Shown: piece after piece, positions 24,327 to 34,945 of the stretch
Layout of the letters: every line of letters begins with the position of its first letter
Numbering within the stretch: position 1 is the stretch's first letter
NCBI GenBank assembly: GCA_012523855.1
Contig: JAAYTB010000159.1
Location: forward strand, 1 to 64,000
DNA length: 64,000 nucleotides
Origin: Clostridia bacterium
Lineage (GTDB): Bacteria; Bacillota; Clostridia; Clostridiales; Clostridiaceae
Reading direction: 5' to 3'
Notes under the pieces: generated by a model
Database searches by the model: none
Told to the model about the DNA's origin: nothing
The model's input: only the letters and a program-made list of their open reading frames with translations
Program-made: the position numbers and the translations under genes

Positions 24327-25451
24327 ATGAAATACGATTTAATAGCAACATCAACCTTTGGTATTGAAGCCATTACAGCAAGAGAGTTAAAAGACTTAGG
24401 TTATAAGGATATAAAAATTGAAAATGGTAGGGCAACTTTTAAAGGTGATGAAAAGGATATAGCAAGGACTAATATATGGCTTAGAACTGCAGACAGAGTT
24501 CTAATAAAGATGTCAGAATTTAAGGCTGAATCTTTTGAAGAACTATTTCAAGGGACAAAAGCTGTGAATTGGTGGAAGCTCATTCCTGAGAACGGCAAGA
24601 TGCATGTAACTGGAAAATCCATTAAATCTAAGCTTTTTAGTGTGCCTGACTGTCAATCTATAGTTAAAAAAGCAGTAGTAGAATCAATGAAGAGAAAATA
24701 TGGCAGAGAGATTTTTCCAGAGGACGGACCTGTATATAAAATTGAAGTAGGCATATTAAAAGACATAGTGACTCTTTCAGTAGATACTTCAGGACCGGGA
24801 TTACATAAAAGAGGCTATAGGGAAAGTGCAGGAGAAGCTCCTTTAAAAGAAACCTTAGCTGCAGCTCTAGTCCTTATAAGTAAGTGGACCCCAGACAGGC
24901 TCTTATATGATCCTTTTTGCGGTTCCGGCACTATACCTGTAGAAGCAGCAATGATTGGGAAGAATATAGCTCCAGGTTTAAGAAGGAACTTTGTCAGCGA
25001 AGAATGGCCTAGTATGAATAAGAGTATATGGAAAAGTGCTAGAAAAGAGGCTGAAAATGCTAAAAATGACTAGGAGTTTGTAATATATGGTTCTGACAAG
25101 GATGGAAAAATCTTAAAGACTGCAAGACAAAATGCCATAAAAGCAGGTGTGGAAAGTTTTACTAACTTTCAAAAGCTACCTCTAGAGGAATTTAGCTCCC
25201 GGAAGAAATATGCTTACATTATAACTAATCCACCTTATGGTGAAAGATTAGGAGAGGAAAAAGAGGTAAGAAAACTTTATGAAATTTTAGGTAACCTATA
25301 TAAAAACCATTCAGATTGGTCTTTCTTTGTCTTAACATCATATTATGAATTTGAAAAATGTTTTAGAAGAAAGGCAGATAAGAATAGAAAACTATATAAT
25401 GGTAGACTTTTATGCTACTATTATCAATACATAAATAATGAAAAAAAATAA
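24327..25451 (+). pseudogene. THUMP domain class I SAM-dependent RNA methyltransferase (RlmL/YpsC-like), interrupted by an in-frame TAG at 25071
   Basis: 24327-25073 carries THUMP, PFCGSGTIPVEAAMIG; the same frame resumes after TAG with EFVIYGSDKDGKILKTARQNAIKAGV and the catalytic ITNPPYGERLG. Confidence 0.88.
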
Positions 25452-27428: not shown

Positions 27429-28925
27429 ATGATGGATACTTGCTTTTCCTTAAGTAAGCCAGATGTAAAAAGAATAGATTCTACGGTGTTAGATTTAGTG
27501 CCAGAGGATTTTGCTATTAAACATAGGATACTTCCCTTTATGGTTCAAGATGGCCTTTTGTATATAGCAATGGAGAAGAAGGAAGCTGGGGAGATAATTG
27601 CTCGATTGAGGTTAATAACTAATATGAAGGTATCTATAGTTGAATATAAAAGTGAAGATTTAGATAAACTTATTTTCCAAGCCTATAAGCATCTTAATTT
27701 CCTTAAGGCTATTGAAAATTTAAAAAATGAGATTAAAACTGAATATTTTAGGTTTAGCAATAGTAAAGAGCCAGAGTCTAATAGTAATGCTCCAGGTGTG
27801 AAAATTTTAAACCATATAATTAATACTGCCATTGAAAGGAGAGCCAGCGACATTCATTTTGAACCTTATGGCAGTTTTTTCCAAATCCGATATAGGATTG
27901 ATGGCAGTCTATGCAAGTTCTTTCAAATACCAATAGAGGTTTATGGTACCGTTACAAGTAGGCTTAAGGTATTAGCTCATATGGATATATCGGAAAAAAG
28001 AGCCTTTCAGGATGGGAAATGCAAACACTTTCATGGCAATAAGGAATTTGATCTGAGGGTGTCTTCTATACCTGTAGTCTATGGGGAAAAATTTGTAGTG
28101 AGAATATTGGATAAATCTAATTTATTTATTAGTTTAGATAAGATTTACTACAAAAAAGAGCAGAATAAATTAGTAAAAAACTTTCTTATGAAAGGCAGCG
28201 GCATAATTTTAACTACAGGACCTACTGGTAGCGGTAAGTCCACCACACTTTATGCTATGTTAAAGGAACTAAATAAGCAAAGTTGCAATATTACAACTAT
28301 AGAAAATCCCGTTGAGTATACAATGAAAGGTGTAAATCAAATAAATGTTAACCCTAAGGCGGGAATAACCTTCGCCGCTGGCTTAAGAAGTGTTTTGAGG
28401 CAGGATCCAGATATTATTATGCTAGGAGAAATTAGAGATGAACAGACAGCGGCTATAGCTATTAGAGCTGCTATAACAGGCCACTTGGTCTTATCTACTC
28501 TTCATACTCGGGATGCCAAAGGAGCTATTACAAGACTACTAGAAATGGGTGTAGAAAAATACTTGTTAGCAGATGCTTTGATAGCTCTCATAGCCCAAAG
28601 ATTAGTTAGGAAGATCTGTCCTAAATGCAAAGAAAGTTATTATCCTTCTCACTTTGAAAAGGAAATTCTCTCATTATCAAAGGATAAAAAATTGTTCAGA
28701 GGAAAAGGATGTTCTGATTGTAACTATAGCGGATATTCAAACCGACAGGTAATAAGTGAAATAATATCTATTGATGAGGATTGGAGAAGAAAATTATTAT
28801 TGGTCAATAATAATTTTGATGGCTTTAGAATTAAGAAAAAAGATAGCTTACAAGAGCAATGTAAGGCCTTAGTTATTGCAGGTATAACAACAAGCGACGA
28901 GTTTATTAAGGTTTATAAGGGATAA
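27429..28925 (+). CDS. GspE/PilB family ATPase
   Basis: GPTGSGKSTTLYAML, DPDIIMLGEIRDEQTA, CPKCKESYY...CSDCNYSG tetracysteine motif. Confidence 0.95.
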   Translation: MMDTCFSLSKPDVKRIDSTVLDLVPEDFAIKHRILPFMVQDGLLYIAMEKKEAGEIIARLRLITNMKVSIVEYKSEDLDKLIFQAYKHLNFLKAIENLKNEIKTEYFRFSNSKEPESNSNAPGVKILNHIINTAIERRASDIHFEPYGSFFQIRYRIDGSLCKFFQIPIEVYGTVTSRLKVLAHMDISEKRAFQDGKCKHFHGNKEFDLRVSSIPVVYGEKFVVRILDKSNLFISLDKIYYKKEQNKLVKNFLMKGSGIILTTGPTGSGKSTTLYAMLKELNKQSCNITTIENPVEYTMKGVNQINVNPKAGITFAAGLRSVLRQDPDIIMLGEIRDEQTAAIAIRAAITGHLVLSTLHTRDAKGAITRLLEMGVEKYLLADALIALIAQRLVRKICPKCKESYYPSHFEKEILSLSKDKKLFRGKGCSDCNYSGYSNRQVISEIISIDEDWRRKLLLVNNNFDGFRIKKKDSLQEQCKALVIAGITTSDEFIKVYKG

Positions 28926-28936
28926 ATTTATAAAAG

Positions 28937-30136
28937 GTGGAAGAAATGAGAAAGTTTCGATATGTGTCTATGAATAATGAAGGGGAGATAGTGAAAGGGC
29001 AATGGGAATGCAATAATATAAAAGAGTTAATTGAATATTTACATGAGAAAAAAGAGTCTTTGCTTTTTATAGATAAGGATAAGCTTAATTTTAAGAAAAT
29101 CACATTTAAGCAAGGAATTAAAAACAATGAACTGGCCTTATTTTGCAAGTATTTCGGAATCATGTTGGAAAGTGGTGTTCCACTGTTGGAAATTACCAAT
29201 ATTAACAGCTTGCAATTCAAAAAAGGAAAATTGTATGAGAATAATATGTATATTGCACAAGCTTTAAGAAGAGGGGAGGCCTTACATGAAGCTATAACTA
29301 ATTGCCCTTATAAGTTTCCTGAATTCTTTATTAATATGGTTAAAGTAGGGGAGGATTCAGGAAATCTAGGAGAAGTTTATAATAATTTATCTACTTATTA
29401 TTATAAAAAAAGCAAGCTTAGTAAAAAACTAATAGAAGTTGCCATTTACCCAACTTTTGTTTTCGTCTTTAGTATATTTTTAGCTATGATCCTATTGACC
29501 ACAGTGGTGCCTTCTATGCTAGATATGATTTTGTCTATGGGAGGGGACCTTCCCTTAGCAACAAAGATAACTTTGGCAGTTAGTTTTTTTCTTACCAATA
29601 ATTTTGGATATATTGTAGCTTTTATTTTAGCTACAATGGTTATTTTAAAAGTCTTAACAAAGGCTGGTAAGGTGAACTTTGATTTTATTAGGAGAAAACT
29701 CCCACTTGTAAAAGAGATTTTTTACAAAAGTTCTTCTTATGATTTTCTTTACGCTTTATATTTGCTTTATCACAGTGGAGTTAATATAGTAACCTCCCTA
29801 GAAGGAGCTGCACAAATCATATCGGATAGCTACATTAGGGAACAAGTTTTAAACAGTGCTAATTATATAAGAGAGGGTAGCAATCTAGCGGAGGCATTAA
29901 TGAATGTTGAAATAATTGATTACAGTAGTTTAACTATGATTTGTTTAGGAGAAGAAACAGGCAAACTAAGTGAAATATTGAGTCGCCTATTAATGATTAT
30001 TGAAGATGAATTGAGGTCCAAGTTAGAAAAATTACTTCAGCTTTTACAGCCTATATCTATATTGATTGTAGGTATTATAGTAGGCAGTATCGTGATTTCA
30101 ATTCTTTTGCCTATGTTTAGTTTGTATAGTCTATAA
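28937..30136 (+). CDS. type II secretion/type IV pilus inner membrane protein (GspF/PilC)
   Basis: MVKVGEDSGNLGEVYNNLS, CLGEETGKLSEILSRL; multi-TM. Confidence 0.94.
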   Translation: MEEMRKFRYVSMNNEGEIVKGQWECNNIKELIEYLHEKKESLLFIDKDKLNFKKITFKQGIKNNELALFCKYFGIMLESGVPLLEITNINSLQFKKGKLYENNMYIAQALRRGEALHEAITNCPYKFPEFFINMVKVGEDSGNLGEVYNNLSTYYYKKSKLSKKLIEVAIYPTFVFVFSIFLAMILLTTVVPSMLDMILSMGGDLPLATKITLAVSFFLTNNFGYIVAFILATMVILKVLTKAGKVNFDFIRRKLPLVKEIFYKSSSYDFLYALYLLYHSGVNIVTSLEGAAQIISDSYIREQVLNSANYIREGSNLAEALMNVEIIDYSSLTMICLGEETGKLSEILSRLLMIIEDELRSKLEKLLQLLQPISILIVGIIVGSIVISILLPMFSLYSL

Positions 30137-30153
30137 AAAGGTTGTGTTAAAGT

Positions 30154-30537
30154 TTGAAAAAAGCTTTTACTCTTATTGAACTAACAGTAGGAATATCAAT
30201 TATATTAATTTTAGTCAGCAGTGCTAACTTAGCCTATAAGTACTATATAAGGCACAGCAGGGATAGAGCTATTAGCTTCTTTAGTGAAGAAATTTTTGAG
30301 GCTGTTATTTATCTTTATGAGGATAGGGGGAATTCCCTTGATGATAGAGATCTGCTTCAAGGAGTTAAGGAGCTAACTAACAATGATTTATCTGTTAGGA
30401 AAATAAATATGGATGACAAATTAATTTACCTTATCTTTTGCTGTCAGCAAAGAGAATACCTGATGAAAATTGATTTGAAAAATTGTAGCTTTACAGTTAT
30501 TGAAATGGTAGGAGATAGGATTATTTATGAAAATTAA
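30154..30537 (+). CDS. type IV pilin-like protein (N-methylation domain)
   Basis: MKKAFTLIELTVGISIILILVSSANLAY class III signal. Confidence 0.85.
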   Translation: MKKAFTLIELTVGISIILILVSSANLAYKYYIRHSRDRAISFFSEEIFEAVIYLYEDRGNSLDDRDLLQGVKELTNNDLSVRKINMDDKLIYLIFCCQQREYLMKIDLKNCSFTVIEMVGDRIIYEN

Positions 30538-30976
30538 AAAAGCTTATACATTACTTGAACTTACGGTGGTTTTGTCAATTTTTAGTATTGTATTTTTGAT
30601 TTTTAGCAATGGCATAAAGGCCTATAAAAACTTTCAAAATGCCATAGTAGTTGAGCAATGCAGTAGTTCAATTATGACCTTTATTAATAGCTGTAAGCAA
30701 TACTGTTATAACAATGAAGTAGAAGGATATATTTTGTGTGACCAAGAGAAGAATAGATTGAGTTTTTATACTGGCAGTAGTCGAAAGAAGGTCTTAAAGC
30801 TTCCTCAAGGATGCAAATTACAGATGGTTAATACAGCTTCTGGTAGGCAAAGGCTAAATTTTGATTCAAAGGGTTTTACTTCAGATGCGTGTACTATTAG
30901 GTATTTAGATTTAAAAGATCTAGAACATAAAATAACTATAAGTGTAGGTACAGCTTATGTGGAAATTAAGGATTAG
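30527..30976 (+). CDS. type IV pilin-like protein
   Basis: MKIKKAYTLLELTVVLSIFSIVFLIF; overlaps the previous gene. Confidence 0.85.
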   Translation: MKIKKAYTLLELTVVLSIFSIVFLIFSNGIKAYKNFQNAIVVEQCSSSIMTFINSCKQYCYNNEVEGYILCDQEKNRLSFYTGSSRKKVLKLPQGCKLQMVNTASGRQRLNFDSKGFTSDACTIRYLDLKDLEHKITISVGTAYVEIKD

Positions 30977-31400
30977 TAAAGGGAATTCTTTATTAGATGT
31001 GATGATATCCCTGTGTATTTTTTCTCTATTATCTCTTTTTGCATTTGATATGTATATGGCCAAAGTTAGACTAAATAATCAAAATAATCAACTAGTAAAT
31101 TATATTAACTGTATGGAAGTAGCAGCTAATAATATATGCTTAAATCACAGCTATGATGAGTTGCTCACTTATAGGGATGAAGATCTTTGGTATATAAACC
31201 AGCAAGATTTAAATGTAGATAATCTTAGCCAAGGTCAAATCTTATCATTATTGAGCCCTAATATAGAAAATGATAGAACATATCTAAGTATTAGTATATC
31301 CGGTACAGATGTATTAAGGCTATCATTTAAACTGAAGTATTCTATTAATGGGAAGGTTGATGTTATAGAGTATGAAAGATATAAAGGCTGCTATAATTAA
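30957..31400 (+). CDS. pilin-like protein with atypical prepilin signal
   Basis: MWKLRISKGNSLLDVMISLCIFSLLSLFAF; Asp in place of the +5 Glu; overlapping gene order. Confidence 0.7.
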   Translation: MWKLRISKGNSLLDVMISLCIFSLLSLFAFDMYMAKVRLNNQNNQLVNYINCMEVAANNICLNHSYDELLTYRDEDLWYINQQDLNVDNLSQGQILSLLSPNIENDRTYLSISISGTDVLRLSFKLKYSINGKVDVIEYERYKGCYN

Positions 31401-31848
31401 GAGGCCTAGAAAAGGTTTTACCTTATTGGAAGTTACCACTGCTATATCTATTATGAGCATACTAATGCTAGCTATATTTTCCCTCTTTACTTTCTTTGTA
31501 AGAGAGTTTAAAAATGCAGCTGCAGAAAATCGGGAAGATTTTTACATAAATGAAGGGTTAAGGTTTATTGAAAATGAAATTTGTAGTGGAAATAAGGAAG
31601 TAAAGTTTCGTGAGGATCTTATAGAAATAAGAAGAACTTCTGATGAAAGGATGGATTTCATCAGGGAAAGTCAAGGGAATTTGATAATAGAATATACTTT
31701 AGCAGGAAGAAGTCATGGAACAAATGTGTTTTTAAAAAACATTTCAGATTTTAGCATAGATATTTATGAACAACTGGTAATAGTTAATATTGTGAACAGT
31801 AAGGGAGAAGTGCATAGAAAGTGTATAAATACTGGCTATATAAAGTGA
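31372..31848 (+). CDS. type IV pilin-like minor pseudopilin (PulJ/PilW-like)
   Basis: RPRKGFTLLEVTTAISIMSILMLAIFSLF. Confidence 0.8.
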   Translation: MKDIKAAIIKRPRKGFTLLEVTTAISIMSILMLAIFSLFTFFVREFKNAAAENREDFYINEGLRFIENEICSGNKEVKFREDLIEIRRTSDERMDFIRESQGNLIIEYTLAGRSHGTNVFLKNISDFSIDIYEQLVIVNIVNSKGEVHRKCINTGYIK

Positions 31849-32285
31849 AAAAAGGGCATATGTCAATATATGTTATGCTAGCAGGTGTATTACTTCTAAC
31901 TATTTCACTGGCCCTATTCAAATTTGAAATAGAAAGAAAAAAATCCTTAAGTTATAGGAGAAAGGCAGTAGAAAAAATTGATGAAAGGGATTATAGACGA
32001 GAAAAGGTTTTTTCTGATTTATATAAAATTTTAAAAGAAGCTGGTCACAATCATAATAAGACTAGTATTATTCAGTATTTGAAAAGTCATAGTTCAGACA
32101 TTGACTTGGATTTTGAAGGAATGAGCCTCCGCTTTATTCCAGAAAAAGAGCAGCTTTTGTTAATCTATAATCATAATGTTCATTATAATCGTGTAGAATA
32201 CTATGATTTTGATGTAGCTGAAGAAGGCCTCACATTTAATTTATTAACTAGTGATTTGATTGGGAGATATGATTATGTTTATTAG
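31845..32285 (+). CDS. possible GspK/PilX-like minor component
   Basis: GTG start 31845 overlaps upstream TGA (GTGA); KKGHMSIYVMLAGVLLLTISLALF lacks the +5 Glu; position in operon. Confidence 0.5.
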   Translation: MKKGHMSIYVMLAGVLLLTISLALFKFEIERKKSLSYRRKAVEKIDERDYRREKVFSDLYKILKEAGHNHNKTSIIQYLKSHSSDIDLDFEGMSLRFIPEKEQLLLIYNHNVHYNRVEYYDFDVAEEGLTFNLLTSDLIGRYDYVY

Positions 32286-32964
32286 CAAAGTTATGAAGGT
32301 ATATGACGATAATATAGAGCTAGTAATAGAAAAATTGAAAACTACAGGTCCAGGAAAGATTAAATTTATATTTTATGATGAAGATATCTATATAGATACA
32401 CTATCTATTCCTGTAGTTAAAAAAGCCTGGATCCATAATATAATTAATAATAAACTTATATATAATTTTGACGACATTGGCAAGTTTTCTTTTAGTTATG
32501 AGATTCTTACTAAGAAAGAAAATAAATATCTGATAGTTCTATATTGCATTAATTCCAGGAAAAATATTTTATATAAAAGTTTAGAGCCTAAACATAAGGT
32601 TGTTGGAGTATTTCTTATTCAACATTGTTATCACTATTTTGTCAAAGAACTTGTAAAAGTAAAAGATTTTATATTAGTTTTTAACTCGAAAAAATACACA
32701 TATGTAATCTTTTCTTATAATGGCTTCTTAAAGAAAAATATAATATTCAAGAATGGTGAGGTAGAGATAGGTGAAATTTTAGACTGTATTAATGAAATCT
32801 TATCCAATGAAGATAATGATGGAACTGTGAAGAATACTCCGATTATAATGATTAATTATGAAAAAGTGGATTCGCTAATGAAAATGTTAAGTGACTGCTC
32901 CTTTAGGAATATGGGAACAGTAGATGAAAATAGAATTATTAGAAAATATGTAGGTGTGTTATGA
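32275..32964 (+). CDS. hypothetical protein in T4P-like operon (PilM/GspL position)
   Basis: Location between pilins and small single-TM proteins; start ATG 32275 after gggag. Confidence 0.45.
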   Translation: MFISKVMKVYDDNIELVIEKLKTTGPGKIKFIFYDEDIYIDTLSIPVVKKAWIHNIINNKLIYNFDDIGKFSFSYEILTKKENKYLIVLYCINSRKNILYKSLEPKHKVVGVFLIQHCYHYFVKELVKVKDFILVFNSKKYTYVIFSYNGFLKKNIIFKNGEVEIGEILDCINEILSNEDNDGTVKNTPIIMINYEKVDSLMKMLSDCSFRNMGTVDENRIIRKYVGVL

Positions 32965-33434
32965 TGAAAAGACATAACTTTATAATGAAAGAATATGAGA
33001 AAGACCTTAGCAAAAGGGAAAATAAAAGGTTTATCTACACAGTGCTAATCCTATTTACTATTAATTTGATTGGCCTTTCATTCCTTAATTATAAAAAAAA
33101 TAAATTAAGCAATAGAACTAGCAAAGCTGTTTTTAAAGTAAGGGAGGAAGAAAGAATAAAGGAAAAAGAGGAACATACATATATCTTTGATTTACGGGAA
33201 AAGTTTGAAAGGTGTTTAGATAAATCCGTTAAGGTAAAGGCTTTCTTTTGGGAGGAAGGTAATATAAGAACTCAAATTATAGCAGTGGATGAAAGTCATT
33301 GTATAGATTTTATAAATAAATTGGAGGAAAGTGAAGTCTTCCAAATTATTGGCCTTTCCACCATAGATAGTACTGAAGAGGGCTATAAGTTATCTTTAGA
33401 TATTGCTACAAAGGAGGATAAGGATAGCAGGTGA
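32961..33434 (+). CDS. PilN/GspL-C-like single-TM protein
   Basis: Cytoplasmic N-term, TM FIYTVLILFTINLIGLSFL, then a coil/extracytoplasmic domain; position. Confidence 0.5.
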   Translation: MMKRHNFIMKEYEKDLSKRENKRFIYTVLILFTINLIGLSFLNYKKNKLSNRTSKAVFKVREEERIKEKEEHTYIFDLREKFERCLDKSVKVKAFFWEEGNIRTQIIAVDESHCIDFINKLEESEVFQIIGLSTIDSTEEGYKLSLDIATKEDKDSR

Positions 33435-33835
33435 AAAAGTTTTTGTACGCAACCGTCTGCACAATACTTATAATATTTTTTATAATACAAGGAAAACTTA
33501 TATTGTATGCTGAAAGGGAAAAGGAAAAAGTAAACTTACCTTTAGCAAATGAAAAGTCTAGCAAGCTATATGAAGAGAAAGAAGAAGAGATAACCTTAAA
33601 CAGAATAATGATGTTGCTTTACTCTAAGAATAGACAATATGAAGTGAAGAGCTTATCTTTTAAGGAGGATGGCAGGGCCTTAGAAGTGGAAGTCCACTAT
33701 TTAGGAAATATAAACCATATGAGGGAGGAATTTAAGGACCTTTTAGCTTTCTCGGGATTTGAAAAAGTTAGGAGCTATCAGGAAGATGATAGTGGTTTGA
33801 AAAAGCTTTACTTATCTTTTGCTCTTAATAAATAA
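33431..33835 (+). CDS. PilO/GspM-like single-TM protein
   Basis: N-terminal TM and small alpha/beta domain; last gene of the overlapping operon. Confidence 0.45.
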   Translation: MKKFLYATVCTILIIFFIIQGKLILYAEREKEKVNLPLANEKSSKLYEEKEEEITLNRIMMLLYSKNRQYEVKSLSFKEDGRALEVEVHYLGNINHMREEFKDLLAFSGFEKVRSYQEDDSGLKKLYLSFALNK

Positions 33836-33986: not shown

Positions 33987-34544
33987 ATGATTTCAGCAGG
34001 AGATTTAAGAAAAGGAACCACTTTTGAGTTAGATGGACAAGTATTTACAGTTGTTGACTTTTTACATGTTAAGCCAGGTAAGGGGGCCGCTTTCGTAAGA
34101 ACTAAACTTAGAAATGTTATTTCAGGTGGAGTTACTGATAAAACTTTTAATCCAACAGAAAAAGTGCAGGAAGCTGTAATTGAAAGAAAAGAAATGCAAT
34201 ATTTGTATTCTGATGGTGAATTATACTATTTCATGGATCAGGAAACTTTTGAACAAATTCCTTTAAACTATGAAAAGGTTGAAGAGGCTATAAAATTCTT
34301 AAAGGAAAATATGTTTGCAATTATTAAATTTTATAAAGGGGAAGCTTTTTCAGTAGAAGCTCCAAACTTTGTAGAACTTCAGATAATTGAAACAGAACCA
34401 GGATTTAAAGGAAATACTGCAACAAATACACTTAAGCCTGCAAAGGTAGAAACAGGAGCAATAGTGAATGTGCCACTGTTCGTTAACGAAGGGGATACTA
34501 TAAGAATAGATACAAGAACTGGCGAATATATGGAAAGAGTTTAA
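33987..34544 (+). CDS. efp: elongation factor P
   Basis: [43 protein letters not shown]. Confidence 0.98.
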
Positions 34545-34582
34545 CAGCTTTTGAAATATTCCGCTTATAAGGGGTGTGTTTT

Positions 34583-34945
34583 ATGGACACGATAAAAACT
34601 AAAGTAGCCTATGTTCGGGGAATGATGGATGGGCTGGCAATTGATCTGGATACTAAAGAAGGTAAGGTTTTGTCAGCTATGTTGAATCTATTGGAGGATA
34701 TAGCAGATAAAATCGAGGAGATTGATTTTAGGCAGGAAGAGTTGGAGACCTATATTGATGATGATATATACGATCAAAATTCTGAAGCTAGTTTTGAAGA
34801 GGACGATTTCATAGAATTTCTTTGTCATCGATGTGGAGAAACAATATATGTAGATAAATCAATTGTTAATAACAATGAACAAATAGAATGTCCTAACTGT
34901 ACTTGCAATTTAATAAGTGACACAACACCCAATTTAAATGATTAA
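34583..34945 (+). CDS. CD1247 N-terminal domain-like protein with C-terminal zinc ribbon
   Basis: VRGMMDGLAIDLDTKEGKVLSAMLNLLEDIAD; CHRCGE...CPNC; located between efp and spoIIIAA. Confidence 0.75.
   Translation: MDTIKTKVAYVRGMMDGLAIDLDTKEGKVLSAMLNLLEDIADKIEEIDFRQEELETYIDDDIYDQNSEASFEEDDFIEFLCHRCGETIYVDKSIVNNNEQIECPNCTCNLISDTTPNLND

Follow-up and report, generated by a model that had tools for sequence, protein, structure and literature searches.

Within a 64,000-nucleotide (nt) stretch of DNA from a member of the Clostridiaceae (assembly GCA_012523855.1, contig JAAYTB010000159.1, positions 1 to 64,000; hereafter 'the window', meaning that whole stretch), ten co-directional genes on the forward strand, at positions 27429-33835, encode an assembly ATPase of the PilB type, a PilC platform protein, five pilins or pilin-like proteins, and three tail proteins. 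At a probability of roughly two in three, this operon would encode a second, dedicated type IV filament machine that relies on a prepilin peptidase and a retraction motor encoded in trans, and that possibly serves in DNA uptake. The defining components of the type IV filament superfamily (an assembly ATPase, a platform protein, and pilins carrying a prepilin signal) are all present, and the claim of an earlier note, made from the sequence alone, that a nine- to ten-gene run of type IV pilus type lies here was confirmed at ten genes, with matches to T2SSE/PilB (E 4.5e-121) and T2SSF/PilC (6.3e-46) and with N_methyl domains in three of the pilins. The operon is common to nearly all Clostridium species and not peculiar to the window genome; it is well conserved and poorly understood, and does not amount to a new kind of system. 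Its gene content, the identity of its PilM/N/O-like proteins, its conservation, the loss of a regulatory motif from its ATPase, the location of pilT, and the presence of a peptidase where this PilB is the only one were each computed directly.

The distribution of the operon was determined from locus maps of 80 named Clostridium and Clostridiaceae loci, 68 of which were informative in that the contig reached far enough upstream. Because the same order is found beside efp (or efp-spoIIIA) in 66 of the 68, the gene order seen in the window is not a product of chance. In 63 of the 68, a PilM-like protein accompanies the ATPase; a recognised PilM is missing in three loci (L112, L117 and L099), and no such operon lies next to spoIIIAA in C. 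brassicae (L070) and C. pascui (L108). The efp-linked clusters examined in two sister families (f2 and f3) are fuller, with both pilT and pilD inside the cluster at L032, L033 and L034, and pilT at L047. Reduced loci (G008, G014, G016 and G061) and fragmented genes (G044) were also encountered, and these lend some weight to the alternative that the operon is what remains of an ancestral, efp-linked type IV pilus, now in decay and without function in many species, as do its fast evolution (in the PilB tree, several lineages have branches of 0.5-1.6 changes per site) and the very low transcription, both in liquid and on plates, reported for the minor pilB1 operon of C. perfringens (PMC6958937). 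That alternative is nevertheless made improbable by the retention of gene order with a recognisable ATPase, platform and PilM in 63 of the 68 loci, by the intact catalytic motifs of the window copy, and by minor-pilin positions that, in alignments of orthologues, are conserved beyond the N-terminal helix. As a separate observation, the loci L049/L048 (G008), L028 (G014) and L175 (G061) encode a short ATPase of approximately 290-300 residues that is devoid of the N-terminal domain, have no recognised PilM/N/O, and are superficially comG-like.

The identity of the three tail proteins was addressed with orthologues drawn from the 80 named loci, which had been located by means of a SpoIIIAA alignment. 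Pfam scans of 44-54 members per tail family returned no consistent family; against sequences in the PDB, the PilN-like profile produced unrelated matches only, and the PilM-like profile reached only the PilM of Myxococcus, at a non-significant 0.42. The tail proteins were therefore assessed by their predicted folds and by comparison of profiles. The AlphaFold2 (AF2) model of the PilM-like protein, with a mean predicted local distance difference test score (pLDDT) of 90.5, gave as its best Foldseek matches the PilM proteins of Pseudomonas and Thermus (5eox, E 6e-10), with FtsA and the cytoplasmic GspL domain ranking next, at modest TM-scores of 0.43-0.57. The model of the PilO-like protein (pLDDT 85) displayed the expected topology of one membrane helix followed by an alpha-beta-beta-alpha-beta-beta domain, and its Foldseek matches, to the periplasmic domain of GspL and to PilN, were weak. 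When profiles of all three families were compared with 14 PilM, PilN and PilO proteins from other pilus clusters, proteins of the same letter ranked first for each of them, the N half of a fused PilMN being one such protein; the single scores were weak, and the pattern was specific. The PilN-like family further possesses a near-constant N-terminal NFLPxWY, with F7 and P9 each conserved to 90% or more and the window copy degenerate, which we take to resemble the PilM-binding start of PilN. On the strength of these models and profiles the three proteins are taken as divergent forms of PilM, PilN and PilO, in agreement with what the earlier note had proposed for the last three genes; the structural comparison that it had recommended placed PilM first for the PilM-like protein and gave weak matches for the PilO-like protein.

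The assembly ATPase differs from its relatives in a feature related to signalling by cyclic di-GMP (c-di-GMP). The 24-residue MshEN c-di-GMP motif, with its consensus taken from PMC11731258, is found in none of 61 efp-linked PilBs, as compared with all 12 of the other Clostridiaceae PilBs, and some of the longer efp-linked PilBs display an apparent degenerate remnant at their N-terminus. Binding of c-di-GMP has been reported for PilB2 of C. perfringens (Hendrick 2017, cited in PMC6958937), and for PilB1 a loss of such binding is predicted. A phylogenetic tree of PilB split the Clostridiaceae efp-linked proteins from all others with support of 98/97, and did not place the efp-linked PilBs of the sister families as their closest kin; because the tree does not join them, descent of the Clostridiaceae operon from a complete efp-linked cluster has synteny as its sole basis. 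A special kinship with ComGA is not claimed, as the ComGA model gives 262-282 bits to all full-length PilBs, whether efp-linked or not.

Neither PilT nor an A24 peptidase is encoded within the window, as the earlier note had observed, and on the whole contig (C87) this PilB is the only T2SSE-type match. The absence of pilD and pilT from the operon is not supported as a peculiarity of the system and is a matter of location, probably so in the case of pilD. On a separate contig of the same genome (C112), pilT is found in the order sigK-pilT-glycosyltransferase-ftsA-ftsZ, and contig C155 carries a second pilB-pilC pair behind groEL and breaks off directly after this pilC. In sister genomes, pilD adjoins guaB at the end of that groEL-linked cluster (in G002, each half is on a contig of its own). 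The genome-wide search suggested at the outset recovered pilT, and found no A24 peptidase in the draft; because the neighbouring guaB is missing from the draft as well (it is present in all three sisters, which served as controls for a full-length query), the absence of pilD is probably an assembly gap in the groEL-linked pilus cluster. A prepilin peptidase is present in 27 of 30 relatives, and an A24 peptidase was found in each of the 22 members of the family that have no PilB other than one of this type (21 verified beside efp, and G017 verified only on the dapF side); the genomes G008 and G014, with a reduced locus, gave no A24 match. The placement of pilT between sigK and glycosyltransferase-ftsA-ftsZ (contig C112, L003 and L156) agrees with that reported for C. 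novyi and C. tetani (PMC6958937), and the complete pilus cluster of sister family f2 (L032) has a sigK-like gene ahead of it, which suggests an old common neighbourhood.

Four proteins of the operon carry prepilin-type N-termini and a fifth has a hydrophobic N-terminus; N_methyl prepilin domains were found in pilins 1, 2 and 4, and pilin 3 and the fifth, ComGG-like protein were recognisable only by comparison with orthologues. Their order is that of comG (ComGD-GE-GF-GG for the minor pilins), and the ComGD match of pilin 2 and the ComGF match of pilin 4, present in 15 of 15 aligned rows each, extend over nearly the full length of the window copies. The same order also parallels GspG-H-I-J-K, and the profiles of the ATPase and platform place GspE and GspF slightly above the PilB and PilC models, both of which would accord with a type II secretion system (T2SS)-like pseudopilus for protein export through the cell wall. 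Gsp models match the minor pilins at the N-terminus only, however, the GspE and GspF scores lie below their curated cut-offs, and a T2SS proper works with a secretin in the outer membrane, whereas the host, by the family in which it is placed, is a monoderm (no search for a secretin was made). Such an exporter is thus highly improbable, and the separate secretion apparatus raised in the earlier note received no positive support.

Pilin 1 is a short pilin of the PilA/GspG type in 14 of 15 aligned rows, the window copy being the exception. Pro22 is confined to this protein, where a sequence pattern detected it in 30 of 62 loci (31 with the inclusion of L088, which the pattern misread), and a Pro22 major pilin is absent from the window operon; the impression that the first pilin of the window genus is unlike a classical major pilin was accordingly upheld. 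Other operons devoid of a Pro22 major pilin include L066, L071, L073, L077 and L083-L089 (except L088), among others, some of them from cold-adapted Clostridium, and these loci still keep the ATPase, the platform, the minor pilins and PilM/N/O. That half of the loci with readable pilins, cold-adapted species and the window genus included, have no Pro22 major pilin in the operon would fit an accessory to adhesion or twitching, in which the operon provides an alternative tip complex and motor, to build or cap pili made from the major pilin of the main locus (PilA2-type), and so tunes adherence and not DNA uptake. The shaft pilin may in that case come from the groEL-linked cluster present in the window genome, and deletion of pilA4 in C. 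perfringens lowers adherence by 42% (PMC6958937). In 22 genomes of the family, however, the efp-linked system contains the only PilB, leaving no second pilus cluster to cap, and an accessory role of this kind is judged rather unlikely.

For the preferred reading, that of a dedicated filament machine, a working model can be proposed. PilB1 and PilC1, together with the divergent cytoplasmic PilM ring protein and the membrane proteins PilN and PilO, would polymerise the pilins of the operon; the four minor pilins would form a priming or tip complex, and pilin 1 would occupy the major-pilin slot. The prepilins would be cut by a PilD encoded elsewhere, retraction (if any) would be driven by the PilT of the sigK-pilT-ftsA-ftsZ locus, and the machine would be uncoupled from c-di-GMP. 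Its most likely job would be to act, as a short or rare pilus, in the capture of ligands beyond the cell wall, and the best single candidate for such a ligand would be DNA, to be passed to ComEA/ComEC. DNA uptake is the favoured function, at roughly one in three, with adherence as its main rival. The operon may, as a tentative proposal, even represent the missing competence pilus of the Clostridia, in the form of a filament for DNA uptake whose minor pilins are of ComG type and whose motor bears PilMNO and is independent of c-di-GMP; Com models would have missed it because its ComG proteins score under their thresholds. In the same vein, the competence-like pseudopilus suggested by the earlier note is possible, given the near-full-length ComGD and ComGF matches, the comG order, and ComEA and ComEC in the genome, but the ComG cut-offs stand in its way.

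Several points weigh against this model. The scores of the operon's proteins in the window all lie below the curated ComG cut-offs (ComGA 280 of 300 bits, ComGB 130 of 240, ComGD 38 of 70, ComGF 39 of 80 and ComGC 12.5 of 75), and as judged by these scores the operon falls outside the curated definition of a Com pilus. ComEA and ComEC do not discriminate, because both were found in all 30 genomes searched, as in the window genome. With Pro22 missing from pilin 1 of the window, it is unclear which pilin would form the shaft, and the tail proteins drew no consistent Pfam family and, in the case of the PilO-like protein, only weak fold matches. An A24 peptidase might serve a Tad system in some genomes (no Tad-type ATPase was found at E <= 0.001 in G004, G007, G009, G011, G013 and G017). 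The low transcription in C. perfringens adds to these points, and the effect of deleting pilA4 there, a mere lowering of adherence, is as compatible with an adhesin as with a DNA-uptake pilus (PMC6958937). Finally, the action of PilD and PilT on this system, the assembly of a filament and the uptake of DNA are steps that we infer. If the model is true, it would offer a concrete candidate for the gap left by ComEA/ComEC, the proteins of DNA intake in competent bacteria, without a Com pilus in Clostridia, and a single cell would run two pili under different control with a common peptidase and retraction motor; the pilB1 operon of C. perfringens also becomes open to study in tractable and harmless species such as C. 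ljungdahlii, which has the locus (L079).

The layout of the operon is compact (Table 1). The first two intergenic gaps are 11 and 17 nt, followed by overlaps of 11, 20, 29, 28, 26, 4 and 4 nt, although some gene starts are mechanical first starts and the true overlaps are possibly smaller; most adjacent reading frames do overlap, as previously stated, over a range of 4-29 nt rather than 4-26 nt. Promoter-like sites numbered 46, barely above the 38.8 found in shuffled sequences (standard deviation 5.8). The last gene ends 151 nt before efp and 1,248 nt before spoIIIAA (35084), in accord with the approximately 1.2 kb noted earlier, and this proximity to spoIIIA is accounted for by efp-spoIIIA synteny. 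A functional tie to SpoIIIA was set aside, as efp and a strong terminator-like hairpin stand between.

Table 1. Coordinates in the window of the pilus operon and its immediate downstream features.
Feature	Position	Strand	Properties
pilB1-type assembly ATPase, 498 residues	27429..28925	+	Walker A, Walker B, His box and C4 zinc motifs all retained; without the 24-residue MshEN c-di-GMP motif
pilC/gspF platform protein, 399 residues	28937..30136	+	T2SSF 6.3e-46
Pilin 1, major-pilin (GspG/ComGC) position	30154..30537	+	Cleavage site between KKA and FTLIE; Pro22 lost in window genus
Pilin 2, ComGD-like	30527..30976	+	E 1.6e-9 over 4-126; 15/15 aligned rows
Pilin 3, ComGE/GspI position	30957..31400	+	Asp replaces Glu5 in window copy; ComGE match in 11/15 aligned rows
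Pilin 4, ComGF-like	31372..31848	+	E 1.1e-9 over 14-149; 15/15 aligned rows
Fifth pilin-like protein, ComGG/GspK position	31821..32285	+	No Glu5; hydrophobic N-terminal helix; weak family match; assigned from position and N-terminus
Putative divergent PilM, 234 residues, predicted actin-like fold	32260..32964	+	AF2, Foldseek and profile matches
Putative divergent PilN	32961..33434	+	N-terminal motif degenerate (NFIMKEY; family NFLPxWY); Pfam PilN weak (0.016); profile matches
Putative divergent PilO, 134 residues	33431..33835	+	One transmembrane helix plus alpha-beta-beta-alpha-beta-beta domain (model); profile matches
efp, conserved downstream neighbour, outside the machine	33987..34544	+	
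Terminator-like hairpin between efp/CxxC gene and spoIIIAA	34957..34994	+	

Other features of the window were recorded in passing. A small protein with a CxxC-CxxC C-terminus (34574-34945, forward strand) lies between efp and spoIIIAA and is conserved in most Clostridium loci. Upstream of the operon, a gene resembling THUMP-type RNA methyltransferases (24327-25451, forward strand) contains one in-frame stop at 25071-25073, and the part of this gene available in sister genome G003 (L018:1-1026) reads through with no stop there; the window copy is either a pseudogene or the product of a sequencing error. The sole Rfam match in the window is an S-adenosylmethionine (SAM) riboswitch (RF00162, 63132-63238, forward strand, 79.6 bits).

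Comparison with known systems places the operon among several familiar machines. According to a survey of Gram-positive bacteria (Imam et al. 2011, PMC3244431), most of those with pilT also possess a second pil operon that lacks this gene, a general pattern to which the present operon conforms; efp linkage, PilM/N/O identity and loss of the c-di-GMP motif are not discussed in the portions of that survey drawn upon here. With the type IVa pili of monoderms (the C. perfringens main locus and the pil locus of S. sanguinis) it shares PilB, PilC, PilM/N/O and pilins with class III signal peptides, and it differs in having no pilD or pilT in the operon, a shortened PilM and a PilO of the lengths listed in Table 1, a PilB devoid of the c-di-GMP motif, and ComG-like minor pilins. 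With the Com pilus of Bacilli (comGA-GG) it shares an ATPase, a platform, pilins in the order major, GD, GE, GF, GG, and the near-full-length matches of pilins 2 and 4, whereas PilM/N/O, a first pilin that is not ComGC and scores below the ComG cut-offs set it apart; Com systems were detected in 1 of 336 Clostridia genomes (PMC7212644).

The closest counterpart is the minor operon of C. perfringens, pilB1-pilC1-pilA4-CPE1841..CPE1836, which comprises nine genes of unknown function (Soncini et al. 2020, PMC6958937). Operons of the window type are likely orthologous to it on the basis of gene order, gene count and pilT context: the opening genes are the same, the loci of Clostridium sensu stricto share its count and order of nine genes (B, C, four pilins and three tail genes), and in both cases pilT sits apart from the operon in a pilT-ftsA-ftsZ locus, into which some species, the window genome among them, have a glycosyltransferase gene inserted between pilT and ftsA. 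The two differ in that the window operon has ten genes, owing to the fifth pilin-like gene. Soncini et al. assigned no function to the last genes, and supposed that PilM/N/O are provided by the main locus (PMC6958937), whereas the tail genes are here recognised as probable divergent forms of PilM, PilN and PilO within the operon itself.

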